The position numbers and the translations under genes are program-made. A stretch of 64,000 bases of DNA from an uncultured bacterium (GTDB taxonomy: Bacteria > Bacteroidota > Bacteroidia > Chitinophagales > Chitinophagaceae), in the NCBI GenBank assembly GCA_903920455.1, contig CAIXLY010000003.1, positions 102,304 to 166,303 on the forward strand. Direction: 5' to 3'. The notes beneath the pieces were generated by a model. That model did not search any database. It saw only the letters and a list, made by a program, of their open reading frames with translations, and was not told the DNA's origin. Position 1 is the stretch's first letter; each line of letters opens with the position of its first letter. Below, piece after piece: positions 23,053-34,495 of this stretch.

Positions 23053-23733
23053 TTAAAGTACTGTATCGTCTACCAACTTCTTTGAGCCATCATCCTGGTA
23101 GGTATACCTAAACTTATAATAGCGCTGTTTGCTTATTTTATCATTGTCAGATGCTGCAGGATCTGGCGTAACGCCGCCTTTGTAGTAATTAAGAATTTCA
23201 ACGATTGCATATTTGCCACTGGCCGTTCTGATGACCAAAACCCTTCCAGGAATTGGAGTAATCAAGTTTTGCTGACCGTTATAGGTGTACCAGCCCTTAT
23301 TGCTTCCTGTGGTAATTGCCATCGTTGGGGAGTTATCAATTTTAAAAACAGAATCAGCAGGAACTGCAGTGAGGTCAGTGAAAATACCAGTGTATACAAA
23401 AGCCCCACCAGCGCCTGGGCCACTGGTTCCACCATTGGTGATAATGGTTGTTCCCCTGAAACCAAGATCCCATTTCAAAGTGTTTGAATCCGCTGAAGCA
23501 ATGATCGCATTATCTTCCAAACTATAGAAGGTGAACTTCCCAGCACCAGCAGGTTGACCATTTGATAAAACTGGTTGACCATCAACATACACAATCGTAT
23601 CTGCAGAAAGGTCATTCACTGTTACCTGATAAAGGGTGGATTCGTCCACTGGCGCATCATTTTTTTTACAAGATTGCAATAAAAAAAATGAGGCCAAAAC
23701 AACTCCGAAAATACGTACACTTTTCATGTTCAT
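23053..23733 (-). CDS. HmuY-family lipoprotein
   Basis: 226 residues with a lipoprotein signal peptide ending LLQSC (Cys22; a second possible start is Met3 at 23727). HmuY of Porphyromonas is a surface haemophore that passes haem to the TonB receptor HmuR. Here the mature part has the family-like beta-rich pattern (DLGFRGTTIITNGG, GRVLVIRTASGKYAIVEI, YYKFRYTYQDDG). It lies 16 bases downstream of a TonB-dependent receptor gene, in the same operon. Haem as the ligand is inferred from family and context; HmuY relatives can bind other ligands. Confidence 0.8.
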   Translation of the reverse strand: MNMKSVRIFGVVLASFFLLQSCKKNDAPVDESTLYQVTVNDLSADTIVYVDGQPVLSNGQPAGAGKFTFYSLEDNAIIASADSNTLKWDLGFRGTTIITNGGTSGPGAGGAFVYTGIFTDLTAVPADSVFKIDNSPTMAITTGSNKGWYTYNGQQNLITPIPGRVLVIRTASGKYAIVEILNYYKGGVTPDPAASDNDKISKQRYYKFRYTYQDDGSKKLVDDTVL

Positions 23734-23749
23734 TTTATTTATGATTGGT

Positions 23750-25828
23750 TTAAAAATTGACTTGTATATCTATGTACCCCGCCCTGCCTGGGTTTCCTGG
23801 CAGAAACTGAATATCCTTGTAGTTCAACACATTGTCTATCCCACCCATAACCCTACATTTTTTATTAACCGAAAAACCTGCACTTGCATTAAGCTGAACA
23901 TAACCCTTGGCATATTCGTCACTCCTGTTAATCAATCCGTTTCCATCCAAATCAGTTGTACCCCATTTGCTGCGATATATTAAACGCGTTGTGGCAAATA
24001 TGCCCGATGCATGTTCATAGCTAAGCTTAAGGTTTGCATTGTGTCTTGACCGATTAGGCAATCCCCCGTACTCAGCAATGGTCATGCGATAAACTTGTCC
24101 ACTTTGAATATCCCGCTGAAAGACGCTGCCCTTCTTGATGTTAGCCAACGCATCCTTGTCTGCTGTATATAAAAACTGATAGCCTGCCTTTGCTGTAATT
24201 GTTGCAGTGATTTTTTTTTCTAGGTCGACCTCAACACCTTGGGTAAGCGCGCGATTGACATTGAAATAACTGAATATTTGTCCCCCATTTTTTTTATAAG
24301 CAATTACATCCGTCAAGATCATGTTGGTGAGGTCGTTTCTAAACAGGTTGAGAGAACCCTTAACGCCTGAGGCGATCCTAAACTTAACGCCAGCGTTGAA
24401 GCCCCCAGAAACCTCTGGGTTTAATTTGGCAACCTTCCCTAGGAGAGATGTTGTTTCTTGAATTAACTGAGCATCCTGCATTCTTTTTAATTCCTGTAAA
24501 GCCACTTGAGCCCCAAACACAGAATAAGAGCCAGCAGCGAGGTTGGTAAAGTTTAAATAGAGCTGACGAAAATCAGGAGCCTTGAACCCCCTACCATAAG
24601 AAAGGTTGAATGAAACATTGTCGCTCAGGCGATATTGCAATGCAGCCTTTGGACTCCAAACAGATGAATATGCCTTGTTCGCATCAAAACGAAAACCACC
24701 AATGATGATCAATTTCTTATTGAGTTTTTCTTCGTGTTGAAGAAAAAAGTAAGCGATCGAATTCTTACGTTTGGTAGACAATGAATCATAGCGATTTGAA
24801 CTGACTGATTCATTGATAATGCCAGCACCTGCATTAAAGGAAGATTGTTCTCTAATCTGCCAATCGGTCTGGTTTTCAATCCTTCTGAAATCCTGCTTAA
24901 ACCTATCGTCATAGCCTCCTTCTGTTTCTTTCACCTTTAGTTCTTGTAGCGCAGTATAGCCAGTTAGATAACCCCTGAGGGTGGTTTCCAGCTTAGGCGA
25001 CAACCGATGCTGAAGATGTGGCGTGATGTTGTATTCATTTGTTCTCTCAAAGCCATTCGAAATAACAATGGCCGAGCCATTCTGAACTGCAATTGCATTT
25101 TTAATATCGGTATTGTTATGACGATATCCTACTCCCATTTTCCATTTTTCATTCAGCATGTGATTTACATTCACATGTTGTGTAGACCGCCAATAGGGCT
25201 CTACAGTTTGCTGTATTGAATTCGGCTTTAGGCTGTACCCTTCAGATCTGTTGTAATTAAATCCTCCTTGTACATCTGTTTTATTCAAGTGCCGAGAAAA
25301 ATTAAAAGACCCATCAACAGTATTGTACTTGGCGTAACGGAGATTGGCATCGGTTTTATGTTGCCCCGCCCTATCTGTTATAATATTCACTACTCCCCCC
25401 ATGGCTTCAGACCCATATAAACTTGAAGAAGGCCCTTTGATGATTTCTATTTTTACAATGTTGCGTATGGTTAATCTCGACAAGTCAAATACACCTCCAG
25501 TTCTTCCAATCAAAGGCTCGCCATCGAGCAATATCAGGGTATACTCAGACGATAATCCCTGAACCTGTATTCCCTTTCCAAAATTATCAACCACCATGAT
25601 TCCTGTCTGCTCTGAAAGGATATCATGCAACCTCAAAGAACCGCTCTGGTAAAGCGTTTTAGCGGATATTATCGAAGCGGGGATGGCAACATTTCCCAAC
25701 AACCTTGGAGACCGGGTGGCCGTCACCACCACTTCATCGATTGACTTCAAGGCCATAGAATCTACCCGCTCTTGAGCGACAGACAAGCTGTACAAGTTGA
25801 TAAACAAAAGGGTAATCCCTAGCCTCAT
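23750..25828 (-). CDS. TonB-dependent outer-membrane receptor (haem/iron type)
   Basis: 692 residues. After a signal peptide comes a TonB-box-like segment with SIDEVVVTATRSPR, then the plug (about 35-160) with IQVQGLSSEYTLILLDGEPL and IEIIKGPSSSLYGSEAMGG. The 22-strand barrel follows, ending with the aromatic YIDIQVNF. It lacks the N-terminal carboxypeptidase-like domain of SusC proteins. With HmuY downstream and an AraC regulator upstream, import of haem or another iron compound is the likely job. The 203-base gap upstream holds no exact TAnnTTTG box, which may reflect a regulator-dependent promoter. Confidence 0.9.
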   Translation of the reverse strand: MRLGITLLFINLYSLSVAQERVDSMALKSIDEVVVTATRSPRLLGNVAIPASIISAKTLYQSGSLRLHDILSEQTGIMVVDNFGKGIQVQGLSSEYTLILLDGEPLIGRTGGVFDLSRLTIRNIVKIEIIKGPSSSLYGSEAMGGVVNIITDRAGQHKTDANLRYAKYNTVDGSFNFSRHLNKTDVQGGFNYNRSEGYSLKPNSIQQTVEPYWRSTQHVNVNHMLNEKWKMGVGYRHNNTDIKNAIAVQNGSAIVISNGFERTNEYNITPHLQHRLSPKLETTLRGYLTGYTALQELKVKETEGGYDDRFKQDFRRIENQTDWQIREQSSFNAGAGIINESVSSNRYDSLSTKRKNSIAYFFLQHEEKLNKKLIIIGGFRFDANKAYSSVWSPKAALQYRLSDNVSFNLSYGRGFKAPDFRQLYLNFTNLAAGSYSVFGAQVALQELKRMQDAQLIQETTSLLGKVAKLNPEVSGGFNAGVKFRIASGVKGSLNLFRNDLTNMILTDVIAYKKNGGQIFSYFNVNRALTQGVEVDLEKKITATITAKAGYQFLYTADKDALANIKKGSVFQRDIQSGQVYRMTIAEYGGLPNRSRHNANLKLSYEHASGIFATTRLIYRSKWGTTDLDGNGLINRSDEYAKGYVQLNASAGFSVNKKCRVMGGIDNVLNYKDIQFLPGNPGRAGYIDIQVNF

Positions 25829-26031
25829 GGAATTGAATTAGAGGGCGAATTTCGCCAAGTTGACCATGGGGATTATCATGGAATTGTCAGATAAGTAGGT
25901 GCTTAAAACTTATGACAAAGCAGTGACAATAGAAGCAAAAAGCTATGAATTGAAGTGAAAGAGAAATTGGTGAAAAGTTGCGGTTGAATATGATATCCTA
26001 CTCAAAAAAAGTAATCGTCGAACTAAAAAAA

Positions 26032-26970
26032 TCAAGACTTATTCAACAACTCACAAGGTTTTAGCCCAGTATGTTTTTTGAATGCAGTTGAAAAGTGCGA
26101 GATGGAAGAGTAACCCAGTTGAGCAGACACCTCTGAAACAGAAAGTCCTTGTTCATAAAGCAGGTATCGGGCATGTTCCATTCGCTGATCCTGATAAAAA
26201 TCGAAAATTGTTGTGCCAAACATTACCCTGAATCCTTTTTTCAGGTAACATTCATTGATAGCAACCTTTCTGCTGAGCTCTTTGATGGTGATGGGATCGC
26301 CGATATGCGACAACAAAATTTCTCTTGACTTGATAATCTTTTCTCGCTCATCCTGATGTTCCAAAAACTTGCATGCTGGCACTTCGTCTTCCTTGAGAGA
26401 ATTAATCGATTCCAGCGTATACAAGAGCAGAATCTGGGTTTGTGCATTGATAAAAATGTTTTCAACCGCATCTGCATATCGATGATTGAGGATGGAGTCT
26501 AATGCATGCCTAATTCTTCCGGAGATGGAGATCGACTTACTAAAAGTATGATGGTATTTGAAGTTTAGTATTGCATCAGTTTCCGCATTTGTGCCTTCAG
26601 ATTTGATCAGATTGGTTAAATGCATCGGTTCAAATCTAAATTGAATAATATCTACTGTGCCAGTCTGCTCAACACACAATGCATTGCGGTTCAGCTTGCA
26701 CTCCTCACAATTGGCTTGTGGAAGATTGCAATAAGCCTGACCACCAATACAAAAACTCAATTCAAGGTACTTGCTGTCCTCACTTTCGTCGTAATGGTAA
26801 ATCAGCGTTCCGCTATCCTCTACCCTTAACTTTTCATCCCTCCCGTATCTTTTGATGGCATAATTCCAGGAACCGGGGATTTTCTTTTCATTGGAAAAAA
26901 GCACAGGAAAATCTTCAAAATGTGACCATTCTGACATTATTCGCTGGGGTATGGCAACAAGATTAGGCAT
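26032..26970 (-). CDS. AraC-family transcriptional regulator with a cysteine cluster
   Basis: 312 residues. The C-terminal AraC helix-turn-helix pair (about 215-312) contains ITIKELSRKVAINECYLKKG and VSEVSAQLGYSSISHFSTAF. The N-terminal sensor domain has cysteines at 74, 81, 88, 91 and 99, a dense cluster that could bind iron, an Fe-S cluster or haem. Its position upstream of the TonB receptor-HmuY unit fits a PchR-like activator of iron uptake. The ATG at 26970 is only 7 bases from a promoter box; the Met at 26937 (MSEWSHFEDF) is an alternative start. Confidence 0.85.
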   Translation of the reverse strand: MPNLVAIPQRIMSEWSHFEDFPVLFSNEKKIPGSWNYAIKRYGRDEKLRVEDSGTLIYHYDESEDSKYLELSFCIGGQAYCNLPQANCEECKLNRNALCVEQTGTVDIIQFRFEPMHLTNLIKSEGTNAETDAILNFKYHHTFSKSISISGRIRHALDSILNHRYADAVENIFINAQTQILLLYTLESINSLKEDEVPACKFLEHQDEREKIIKSREILLSHIGDPITIKELSRKVAINECYLKKGFRVMFGTTIFDFYQDQRMEHARYLLYEQGLSVSEVSAQLGYSSISHFSTAFKKHTGLKPCELLNKS

Positions 26971-27135: not shown

Positions 27136-29139
<2,004 letters not shown>

Positions 29140-30659: not shown

Positions 30660-32186
30660 ATGGAAAATAAAAAATGTATTCTTCTGATTATGGATGGATG
30701 GGGTCTTGGCTCAGTTCCTTCCAGCGATGTAATCCAACACGCACATGTACCCTTTGTTGCCTCACTATATGACAAATACCCGCATACTACGCTTGTGACA
30801 TGTGGAGAGCCAGTTGGCCTACCTGATGGGCAGATGGGAAATAGCGAAGTCGGACACCTCAATCTAGGTGCCGGAAGAATCGTTTACCAGGAACTGCAAA
30901 GAATTAACGTAGCCATCCGCACAGGTGAACTTCAGAAAAACGAAACATTACTGGCTGCTTTGCATCATGCGAAGAAGAACAATAAAAAACTACACTTGAT
31001 TGGTTTAATCAGTGATGGTGGTGTGCATTCCCATATCAATCATGTCAAAGCAATTACCGACCTCTGCAAAGCAGAAGCTTTAGAAAACGTATTTATCCAT
31101 GCCTTCACCGATGGCAGGGACACAGACCCTAAAAGCGGACTTGCATTTATCACCGAGTTAGAGGAACACCTGAAAACATCAACAGGAAAAATTGCTAGCA
31201 TCACTGGAAGATACTATGCCATGGACCGCGATAAACGTTGGGAAAGGGTAAAGCTAGCATATGATGGCATGGTAAAAGGAGAAGGGCAGCATGCGCATTC
31301 AGCCGTTGAGGCCATTAAGGGGTCTTACGAAAATAATATCACAGATGAATTTATCAAACCGGTGATTTTGGTTGATAAAAATGAACAGCCACTAGCCACA
31401 ATAACAGATGGCGACGTGGTGGTTTGTTTTAACTTCCGTACCGACCGTTGTAGAGAGATCACTGAGGTACTTACACAAAAAGACTTCTCTGAATTTGGCA
31501 TGCAGAAACTGGACTTGCACTACACAACAATGACAGAGTATGACAATACGTTCAAAAACGTACATGTCATTTTTAGAAATGATAACCTGACCAATACTTT
31601 AGGAGAAGTACTTGAAAAGCAGAAAAGAACACAGATCAGGATTGCTGAAACTGAAAAATATCCCCATGTTACTTTTTTCTTTAGTGGAGGGCGAGAAGTG
31701 CCTTTTGAGGGAGAGAAAAGAATTATTGCGGCTTCACCAAAAGTAGCCACCTATGATCTTCAACCCGAAATGAGTGCATTTGAACTTACAGAAAAGATAG
31801 TTCCAGAAATCAACAACAAGACTGCAGATTTTATTTGTCTTAATTATGCCAACGCAGATATGGTTGGCCATACCGGAGTATGGAGCGCTGCCGTGAAAGC
31901 AGTTGAAACCGTAGATTCCTGTGTCAAGCAAGTGGTAGAAGCTGCATTGAACAACGACTATACTGTATTTCTTACTGCCGACCATGGGAATGCAGATTAT
32001 ATGAAAAACGAAGATGGATCGCCCAATACTGCACATACGCTCAACCCTGTTCCACTTTTTGTAATAGACAAGCATTGGAAAGGAAGTGTAAAACCAGGAA
32101 AATTAGGCGACATAGCCCCAACCATTTTGCATATGATGAATATTCCTATTCCAGTTGAAATGACAGGAGAGGTATTAATATCATGA
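30660..32186 (+). CDS. gpmI: 2,3-bisphosphoglycerate-independent phosphoglycerate mutase
   Basis: 508 residues. It interconverts 3- and 2-phosphoglycerate with two Mn ions and a phosphoserine intermediate. Visible are the metal-binding LLIMDGWGLG at the N-terminus, the catalytic Ser62 in MGNSEVGHLNLGAG, TDGRDTDPKSG, RYYAMDRDKRWER and the C-terminal TADHGNADYM. The stop overlaps the start of the following TonB receptor gene by 4 bases (ATGA), suggesting translational coupling. Confidence 0.97.
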   Translation: MENKKCILLIMDGWGLGSVPSSDVIQHAHVPFVASLYDKYPHTTLVTCGEPVGLPDGQMGNSEVGHLNLGAGRIVYQELQRINVAIRTGELQKNETLLAALHHAKKNNKKLHLIGLISDGGVHSHINHVKAITDLCKAEALENVFIHAFTDGRDTDPKSGLAFITELEEHLKTSTGKIASITGRYYAMDRDKRWERVKLAYDGMVKGEGQHAHSAVEAIKGSYENNITDEFIKPVILVDKNEQPLATITDGDVVVCFNFRTDRCREITEVLTQKDFSEFGMQKLDLHYTTMTEYDNTFKNVHVIFRNDNLTNTLGEVLEKQKRTQIRIAETEKYPHVTFFFSGGREVPFEGEKRIIAASPKVATYDLQPEMSAFELTEKIVPEINNKTADFICLNYANADMVGHTGVWSAAVKAVETVDSCVKQVVEAALNNDYTVFLTADHGNADYMKNEDGSPNTAHTLNPVPLFVIDKHWKGSVKPGKLGDIAPTILHMMNIPIPVEMTGEVLIS

Positions 32187-34495
32187 TGATAAAATTTCAT
32201 ACTAATTTTTTCAAATGGGCTATGATGATCTTGGCCCATTTGTTTATTGTGCAATCGCATGCACAATCCGCTCCTGATACTACAAAGATTACAGCGTTGA
32301 CCGAGGTGGTTGTATCCGGCACCAAGTTTGTTGAGAAGAAAAAAAATATAGTCCAAAAAATAGACAATATTAACGCTTCATATATCAAGCGGGTAAACGC
32401 ACAAAATACCGGTGACCTCTTGATGAGTACTGGAAATATTTTTGTCCAAAAAAGTCAGCAGGGAGGAAGCAGTCCGGTGATTAGAGGATTTGAGGCAAGC
32501 AGAATTTTATTGATTGTAGATGGAATTAGAATGAACAATGCCATCTATCGTGCGGGTCATTTGCAAAACCTCATAACGGTCGATCAACACACACTTGAAA
32601 ATATAGAAGTCCTGCAAGGACCTGCCTCCACGCTATATGGAAGCGATGCACTTGGAGGTGCAGTGCACATGATTACGAAAAGGCCAACCTTATCTGATAA
32701 TGCTAAAAAGACACAGATCAAGGCAAATGGGTTGATGAGGTATTCAACTGCCAATCAGGAAAATATGGTTCATGCAGACGTGAACATCGGCGCTCATAAA
32801 ATTGCATTTCTTAGCAGCATGACCCTGAGTACATTTAGCGACCTCAGGATGGGGAAAAAAGACAACAAAGACTTCCCTGGATTTGGAACCAGGCCTTTTT
32901 ACATAAGGGCGTATGACGGGATTGTGGGAGATAGCATAATGAGAAACAACAATGAGCGTATACAAAAATATTCAGGGTATAATCAACTTGACCTGATGCA
33001 AAAAGTCTTATTTAAAACAAGTGCTAAATTAGAACAGCTCATCAATTTTCAATTATCAACTTCCTCAAACATACCACGATACGATCGCCTGCAAGATATC
33101 AGGAATGGCAGCTTAAGATACGCGCAATGGTACTACGGTCCACAAGCAAGAAAGCTCTTAGGGTATACTCTCCAACTAAAAGATCAGCCAGGTTTTTTTG
33201 GTGAGTATAAAGCCGTTCTCAGTTATCAAGCAATTGAGGAAAGCCGCATTACCAGGCAATACAAACGCTACGATGAGCTTGACCAACGAAGTGAAAAAGT
33301 TGATGTAATTGGACTCACGATAGATGCAAGAAGAAAAATGAGAAAGGACGAAATTACTTCAGGTGTGGATCTACAATTCAATCATGTTATTTCAACTGCA
33401 CACAGAACCAACTTACTCAATGGACTGATCTCACCACTTGATACCCGATATCCAGATGGAAAGAATAGGATGAGCCATGCGGGAATCTATATTCAGCATA
33501 TCAGAAAAATGAAGGATGATAAAATAGTACTTAACGATGGCATGCGGTATCAGTATGTTTTTCTAAATTCCTCGATAATCAACAATTCGTTCTTTTCATT
33601 GCCAGTGACCGACATAGTGCAGCGCAATGGAGCAATTACAGGCAATATTGGATTGGCCTATATGCCTTCAAAAAACACAAGACTTACCTTAGGTTATTCC
33701 TCAGGATTCCGGGCGCCAAATATTGATGATTTAAGTAAAATATTTGAATCCAGTACTTCCGCCAGACAAGTGGTGGTTCCTAACCCTAGCCTAAGGCCTG
33801 AGTCAACCAACAGTATTGATATTGGCATAAGCCAATCAATCGATAAATCCATTTTCATTGATCTGGGCGGATTTTACACCCTATTCAACAACGCCATTGT
33901 AAAAGCTCCTTTTAAACTCAATGGGCAGGACTCCATCATGTACTACAACACAAATGCACAGGTGCTGGCCAGTCAGAATTTAGGCAGGGCAATTATATAT
34001 GGGGCCAATGCATCCTTTACTGTGAACATTAACAATCGATGGAAATTTTCTAGTACAGCCAACTACACCATCGGAAATTTATTAACTGATCACTCAACCA
34101 CTTCTGCCGTGTATGTCCTCCAACAGGATGGAACCTACGCAATCACCCAGCAATATGTAAAGAGAAAACCCCTTGATCATATCCCTCCTTTTTTTGGAAA
34201 ATTTAGTGGCCTTTACCAAGGCAAGAAATTGTATGCTGAATGCTATATCCATGTAAATGGCTGGAAAAAACTAAATCGTTATAATGTGGATGGTGAAGAC
34301 AATGCACAATATGCCACAGCAATGGGGAGTCCAGCTTGGCAAACACTCAACTTTCGCTTTGGTATTGACCTGCGACCAAAATTACAATTGCAGCTAGCCC
34401 TTGAGAACTTACTGGACCTAAATTACCGATATGTTGCCTCTGGGCTATCGGCACCAGGGAGAAATTTTAGCATCGCAGTCAGGGGGTCTTTGTAA
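32183..34495 (+). CDS. TonB-dependent receptor, haemoglobin/haem-receptor-like
   Basis: 770 residues with a signal peptide (cleavage near QSHAQS), a TonB-box-like TEVVVSGTKF, a plug with SSPVIRGFEASRILLIVDGI and VLQGPASTLYGSDALGG, and a large barrel containing GFRAPNIDDLSKIFESS. The SPVIRGFEA and FRAPNIDDL motifs recall the haemoglobin/transferrin/lactoferrin receptor family. The ligand is inferred to be haem or an iron complex. Oddly, its ATG overlaps the stop of the glycolytic gene gpmI, so the two share an mRNA. Confidence 0.88.
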   Translation: MMIKFHTNFFKWAMMILAHLFIVQSHAQSAPDTTKITALTEVVVSGTKFVEKKKNIVQKIDNINASYIKRVNAQNTGDLLMSTGNIFVQKSQQGGSSPVIRGFEASRILLIVDGIRMNNAIYRAGHLQNLITVDQHTLENIEVLQGPASTLYGSDALGGAVHMITKRPTLSDNAKKTQIKANGLMRYSTANQENMVHADVNIGAHKIAFLSSMTLSTFSDLRMGKKDNKDFPGFGTRPFYIRAYDGIVGDSIMRNNNERIQKYSGYNQLDLMQKVLFKTSAKLEQLINFQLSTSSNIPRYDRLQDIRNGSLRYAQWYYGPQARKLLGYTLQLKDQPGFFGEYKAVLSYQAIEESRITRQYKRYDELDQRSEKVDVIGLTIDARRKMRKDEITSGVDLQFNHVISTAHRTNLLNGLISPLDTRYPDGKNRMSHAGIYIQHIRKMKDDKIVLNDGMRYQYVFLNSSIINNSFFSLPVTDIVQRNGAITGNIGLAYMPSKNTRLTLGYSSGFRAPNIDDLSKIFESSTSARQVVVPNPSLRPESTNSIDIGISQSIDKSIFIDLGGFYTLFNNAIVKAPFKLNGQDSIMYYNTNAQVLASQNLGRAIIYGANASFTVNINNRWKFSSTANYTIGNLLTDHSTTSAVYVLQQDGTYAITQQYVKRKPLDHIPPFFGKFSGLYQGKKLYAECYIHVNGWKKLNRYNVDGEDNAQYATAMGSPAWQTLNFRFGIDLRPKLQLQLALENLLDLNYRYVASGLSAPGRNFSIAVRGSL

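Follow-up and report, generated by a model that had tools for sequence, protein, structure and literature searches.

A cysteine-loop AraC-family regulator appears to switch on haem uptake in freshwater bacteria and haem synthesis in haem-making relatives

What might an AraC-family regulator sense, and which genes would it control, when five cysteines crowd its sensor half and its gene lies beside those of a TonB-dependent receptor and a HmuY-family lipoprotein? The control of haem synthesis and import in Bacteroidota is poorly known, and at this locus one regulator, one operator and candidate targets can be named. We analysed the window, a 64,000-nucleotide stretch of DNA from an uncultured member of the Chitinophagaceae, together with related loci and genomes (Table 1). 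Sequence comparisons make it probable that the protein activates the supply of haem, its target having changed from synthesis to import; its four-cysteine site most likely holds Fe-S.

Table 1. Features of the regulator gene, the operator and the predicted target operon in the window
Feature	Position	Strand	Support
HmuY-family lipoprotein, second gene of predicted target operon	23053..23733	-	PF14064
TonB-dependent outer-membrane receptor, first gene of predicted target operon	23750..25828	-	PF00593 and PF07715
-7 box position, here GAAATTCG, degenerate TAnnTTTG, at fixed distance from operator	25846..25853	-	
Promoter-proximal half-site, + strand TATCATGGAATTGTCA, at would-be -33 box position	25874..25889	+	
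Operator TGTCA-N6-TGTCA-N23-TGACA-N6-TGATA, two inverted 16-bp half-sites, 55 bp	25874..25928	-	Sequence conservation
Promoter-distal half-site TGTCACTGCTTTGTCA	25913..25928	-	
AraC-family regulator, 312 aa	26032..26970	-	PF12833 at residues 232-309 and homologues
AraC-type DNA-binding domain, residues 215-309	26044..26328	-	Pfam; structural matches to AraC, SoxS and AraT domains
Five-cysteine loop, codons 74-99, C74-x6-C81-x6-C88-x2-C91-x7-C99	26674..26751	-	Alignments, tree

The regulator and its cysteine loop

The reading frame of the regulator is complete and starts with ATG. Its membership of the AraC/XylS family was established by PF12833 (E 2e-19) and PF00165 (E 3e-11), both above their gathering cut-offs; residues 1-230 gave zero matches in the Pfam search, which found AraC-type domains only and no DNA-binding domain of the Rrf2 (IscR/RirA/NsrR) or MerR (SoxR) type. 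The DNA-binding domain is almost invariant throughout the regulator's family, and it is to such domains only that a sequence search of the PDB returned reliable matches. In Foldseek comparisons Rns, CsvR and ToxT came out as the nearest solved full-length structures, at whole-chain TM-scores that were low; several of these were determined with a bound small ligand. As for its surroundings, about 50 loci (window 27160-29139; loci L003-L083) share a divergent gyrB-type neighbour but vary in the genes downstream of the regulator, and in other lineages the neighbour is an lpxA-like gene. At L033:7062-9194 and in eight similar loci the genes next downstream are an unannotated one of 129 aa, cytochrome c-like genes and one for a tRNA_anti-like protein, all of them possible further targets.

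The original prediction had placed five cysteines at residues 74, 81, 88, 91 and 99, and these positions are exactly right; three more lie at 200, 241 and 306. The chance of finding five among eight cysteines within 26 residues is 0.7% given eight cysteines, and 0.03% at a cysteine frequency of 1%. Conservation among homologues, set at the time as a check, proved complete among close relatives and, beyond them, all-or-none. The window protein and its 80 close GTDB relatives, 81 sequences in total, have all eight cysteines without exception. Among 181 different relatives, drawn from the species genomes of GTDB, 158 have at least five cysteines within residues 71-108, and the others have 0-2 save for one distant paralogue with three. 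The cluster itself therefore stood; its conserved unit is made up of four residues (81, 88, 91 and 99), from which C74 is separable. In relatives that lack the cluster (L086, L145, L155, L284 and an entire sister clade), C81, C88, C91 and C99 are missing jointly, usually together with the loop, while C74 was kept in L086, L145 and L284, and C200, C241 and C306 are usually kept. This persistence rules out a single site formed by all eight cysteines. On a regulator tree built without the cysteine loop, five changes of the cluster were required, four of them forced by well-supported branches, and joint loss of the four occurred at least four times.

Because the four cysteines vanish jointly, they look, from the alignments, like one four-ligand site and not like separate thiols. 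A conserved set of three or four cysteine ligands acting as one site is one criterion for an Fe-S regulator, and C81, C88, C91 and C99 are such a set. The commonest spacing is C81-x6-C88-x2-C91-x7-C99, followed by C-x4-C-x2-C-x7-C, and the middle spacing is variable, mostly x2 and x4-x5 in some relatives. AlphaFold models residues 81-100 with low confidence (pLDDT 54-57). The earlier statement that ordinary AraC sensor domains lack such a cluster holds, among the sequences compared, for more distant AraC proteins of Bacteroidota and for the clusterless sister clade. Members of that clade (L156-L161, L234-L239, L289, L290) have a cysteine-rich linker before the DNA-binding domain, with the motif C-x-VPAC-[RS]-FL in several of them.

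The candidate operator in front of the TonB-HmuY genes

Pfam confirmed the TonB receptor and HmuY genes beside the regulator, including their order and shared strand. The HmuY protein scored 43 bits against PF14064 (cut-off 27) and is the only HmuY in the source genome. It has 0 histidines and one methionine in the mature part, so that the paired His/Met haem ligands of characterised members are absent, and no histidine or methionine is conserved in the mature protein across 24 sequences. The genes of the predicted 'haem/iron uptake' operon are as described, the haem label had been a guess from names, and the link to haem comes from the other evidence given below. A tandem pair of HmuY-family genes lies behind a TonB receptor at L024:9072-10403. 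The window also encodes a second TonB receptor (32183-34495), with no matching operator close by; its nearest models are those of haem/haemoglobin receptors (TIGR01785/TIGR01786), with scores below their cut-offs.

The gap between the regulator and the receptor (25829-26031) contains a highly conserved candidate operator of AraC type. In the window it matches the pattern with 0 mismatches, and it is the sole site at up to three mismatches in the 2.3-Mb genome, in which a reversed control pattern gave 0 sites. Nine other half-sites in the source genome, including all three other exact ones, were inspected and lie inside coding sequences, and were discarded as background. The operator pattern is common to the AraC-TonB gaps of the close clade. 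With its constant 23-bp spacer it is kept in the window and in 24 AraC-bearing loci, and it was also recovered in further genera when 150 genomes from the same family were scanned. A TonB gene lies directly downstream in 13 of 15 regions fetched from other genomes (G382, G342, G429, G318, G339, G312, G320, G314, G357, G438, G423, G410 and G364), nearly always followed by HmuY; the two remaining regions have mismatch-3 sites without a TonB gene. In other genera the operator keeps its place before TonB-HmuY irrespective of the AraC gene, which may lie kilobases off or on a different contig. Among genomes with HmuY, it was found in 14 of 40 with the cysteine-bearing AraC protein versus 0 of 21 without it (Fisher p = 0.001, uncorrected for kinship), and 26 of the 40 are without a full operator at the stringency used.

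Within a half-site the two boxes are spaced by 11 bp, which is the spacing expected if a single AraC monomer binds with its two helix-turn-helices. Alignment of 38 loci on the operator showed an A in column 76 and a T in column 80 in every one, which corresponds to a -7 box of the form TAnnTTTG, and given the phasing of this box the inner half-site covers the -33 position. Judged from sequence, this is an activator layout, and it is because of this promoter phasing that we take the regulator to be a putative activator.

hemA and the regulator's own gene

Half-sites were also found away from the import genes. Eleven genomes without HmuY contain nine exact half-sites in all, and in two of these genomes (G311 and G351) the AraC gene itself is preceded by one. 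In a set of 55 family loci that have no full operator, 11 half-sites were counted in front of the AraC gene against 0.5 expected, an enrichment of about twenty-fold. Two others of the nine exact half-sites lie in the divergent hemA-hemH gap of G374 and upstream of hemA in G433. Since the half-site at hemA was unexpected, we tested the presence of HemA (glutamyl-tRNA reductase, the first step of haem synthesis, encoded by hemA) against that of the HmuY operator, in genomes picked before the answer was known. HemA was found in 0 of 10 genomes carrying the HmuY operator, source genome included, and in 12 of 12 preselected genomes that have the cysteine-bearing AraC protein and no HmuY, among them one of the same genus as the source genome (G431). 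If the genomes were independent, the chance of this split would be about 1.5e-6 (1 in C(22,10), calculated by hand); they are related, so its true strength is less. The source lineage would seem, judged on HemA, to have lost haem synthesis. These lineages amount to a natural experiment, with the operator at the import operon where HemA is lacking and the half-site at hemA where it is present.

In each of 18 genomes hemA is preceded by a half-site, the weakest being that of G431 (8.6 bits in phased position). A perfect TAnnTTTG lies 20, 30-31 or 41-42 bp beyond the hemA half-site, compared with 20 bp for the HmuY operator; these distances are helical steps and therefore keep the site on the same face of the helix. 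In 11 loci the AraC gene adjoins hem genes, namely hemL and hemB and, in several cases, hemF and hemE as well; in 23 it adjoins HmuY, and the two groups do not overlap. Four of the 18 hemA genomes (G319, G385, G417 and G076) have the half-site without a cysteine-cluster AraC protein, two of them having a clusterless sister protein and two only distant AraC proteins. Therefore, another factor may share the site, and the DNA site predates the cysteine loop or is more widespread. Conversely, the cysteine-bearing regulator persists after loss of TonB-HmuY in L021 and G431, and is therefore not confined to that operon. At L021:7057-9949 a sigma factor and an amine oxidase take the place of TonB-HmuY, the operator is gone and the five cysteines are kept. 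Exclusive dedication of the regulator to TonB-HmuY was rejected in view of the half-sites at hemA and at its own gene. The simplest account is that it switches on hemA in haem-making bacteria and TonB-HmuY in those that must import haem.

Proposed mechanism, alternatives and known systems

We propose that the DNA-binding domain of the regulator recognises TGTCA-N6-TGTCA. In the source genome, in which no hemA was found, the two inverted sites would place the regulator just upstream of the -7 box, where, once bound, it would replace the -33 box and recruit RNA polymerase at the TonB-HmuY promoter. Haem-making relatives would use the same half-site before hemA, and often before the regulator's own gene. 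Under iron or haem shortage the cluster or metal would be lost or altered, and the regulator would then activate haem supply. We put forward more tentatively the fuller proposal that the regulator senses Fe-S status through the four-cysteine loop and governs haem supply in Chitinophagaceae, its site having moved from hemA to the import operon where synthesis was lost.

The most likely ligand of the four-cysteine loop is an Fe-S cluster, and zinc ranks second. Fe-S is suggested by the pattern of four cysteines, by the variation in their middle spacing and by predicted targets concerned with iron and haem, and a sensor dedicated to metal or Fe-S is plausible. The same regulator could act on the same targets with its four cysteines binding structural Zn(II) and with haem, one of its precursors or an iron chelate bound in the N-terminal domain as a small-molecule signal, which we regard as possible, if rather unlikely. 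Joint loss of the four cysteines suits zinc equally well, and the nearest solved structures, Rns, CsvR and ToxT, several of them ligand-bound, suit a small-molecule signal; however, the changes in middle spacing are unusual for a zinc knuckle and the predicted targets concern iron and haem, not zinc. Direct binding of haem by the cysteine cluster, which the original prediction had allowed, would fit a predicted regulon of haem supply, but it is quite unlikely: the sensor half has no invariant histidine in the alignment, and haem binding through a Cys-Pro haem-regulatory motif is disfavoured, as the cluster contains none in the regulator or the homologues listed.

Redox-active cysteines occur in other AraC-family proteins such as RclR, and the cysteines here might likewise be thiol switches that form disulphides, so that the regulator reports oxidative stress. 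This is the least probable of the alternatives, since exactly four cysteines are lost all-or-none together with the loop, and the predicted targets serve haem supply rather than detoxification. It is also unlikely that the operator belongs to another factor, the AraC gene being retained next to gyrB as a bystander. The gyrB-type neighbour is found in many loci regardless of the downstream genes, some genomes have hemA half-sites without the cysteine-bearing AraC protein, and a Fur-like protein is present, all of which would agree with a bystander. Against it, half-sites are strongly enriched before the AraC gene itself, the 11-bp box spacing suits an AraC monomer, and the operator tracks the cysteine-bearing AraC protein among HmuY genomes.

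With respect to known systems, the regulator resembles CdhR of Porphyromonas gingivalis in its predicted action on an hmu-type operon, and CdhR belongs to the LuxR family, not to AraC. CdhR has been reported as a regulator of hmuYR by a mechanism called unclear, and a study of the iron stimulon of Bacteroidota describes knowledge of iron-dependent regulators as scarce (PMC10434189). Our literature search found no Fe-S AraC regulator, no AraC regulator of hemA, and none that combines a four-cysteine unit with a predicted haem-supply regulon.

AraC regulators of iron uptake are already known. The siderophore activators PchR, YbtA and AlcR act on TonB receptor genes and respond to ferric siderophores, and we know of no such cysteine cluster in them. 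The cysteine-loop regulator is like them in being an AraC protein with iron uptake as a predicted target, as it is like IurV, which also controls iron uptake (PMC7600106), and differs from the siderophore activators in that haem synthesis is a predicted target too. Within AraC/XylS (Rns, ToxT, AraC, SoxS) it shares the C-terminal double helix-turn-helix and boxes one helical turn apart, and its nearest full-length structural matches, at low TM-scores, are Rns, CsvR and ToxT, whereas its N-terminal domain is without a Pfam model and bears a loop of four or five cysteines that is missing in the more distant AraC sequences compared. The putative cluster would make it a functional analogue of IscR, RirA, NsrR and SoxR, in which a cysteine-ligated Fe-S cluster reports iron or redox status; those proteins have Rrf2 or MerR folds and this one is an AraC protein. 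If its loop holds an Fe-S cluster, it would be the first such sensor in the AraC family as far as our literature search shows.
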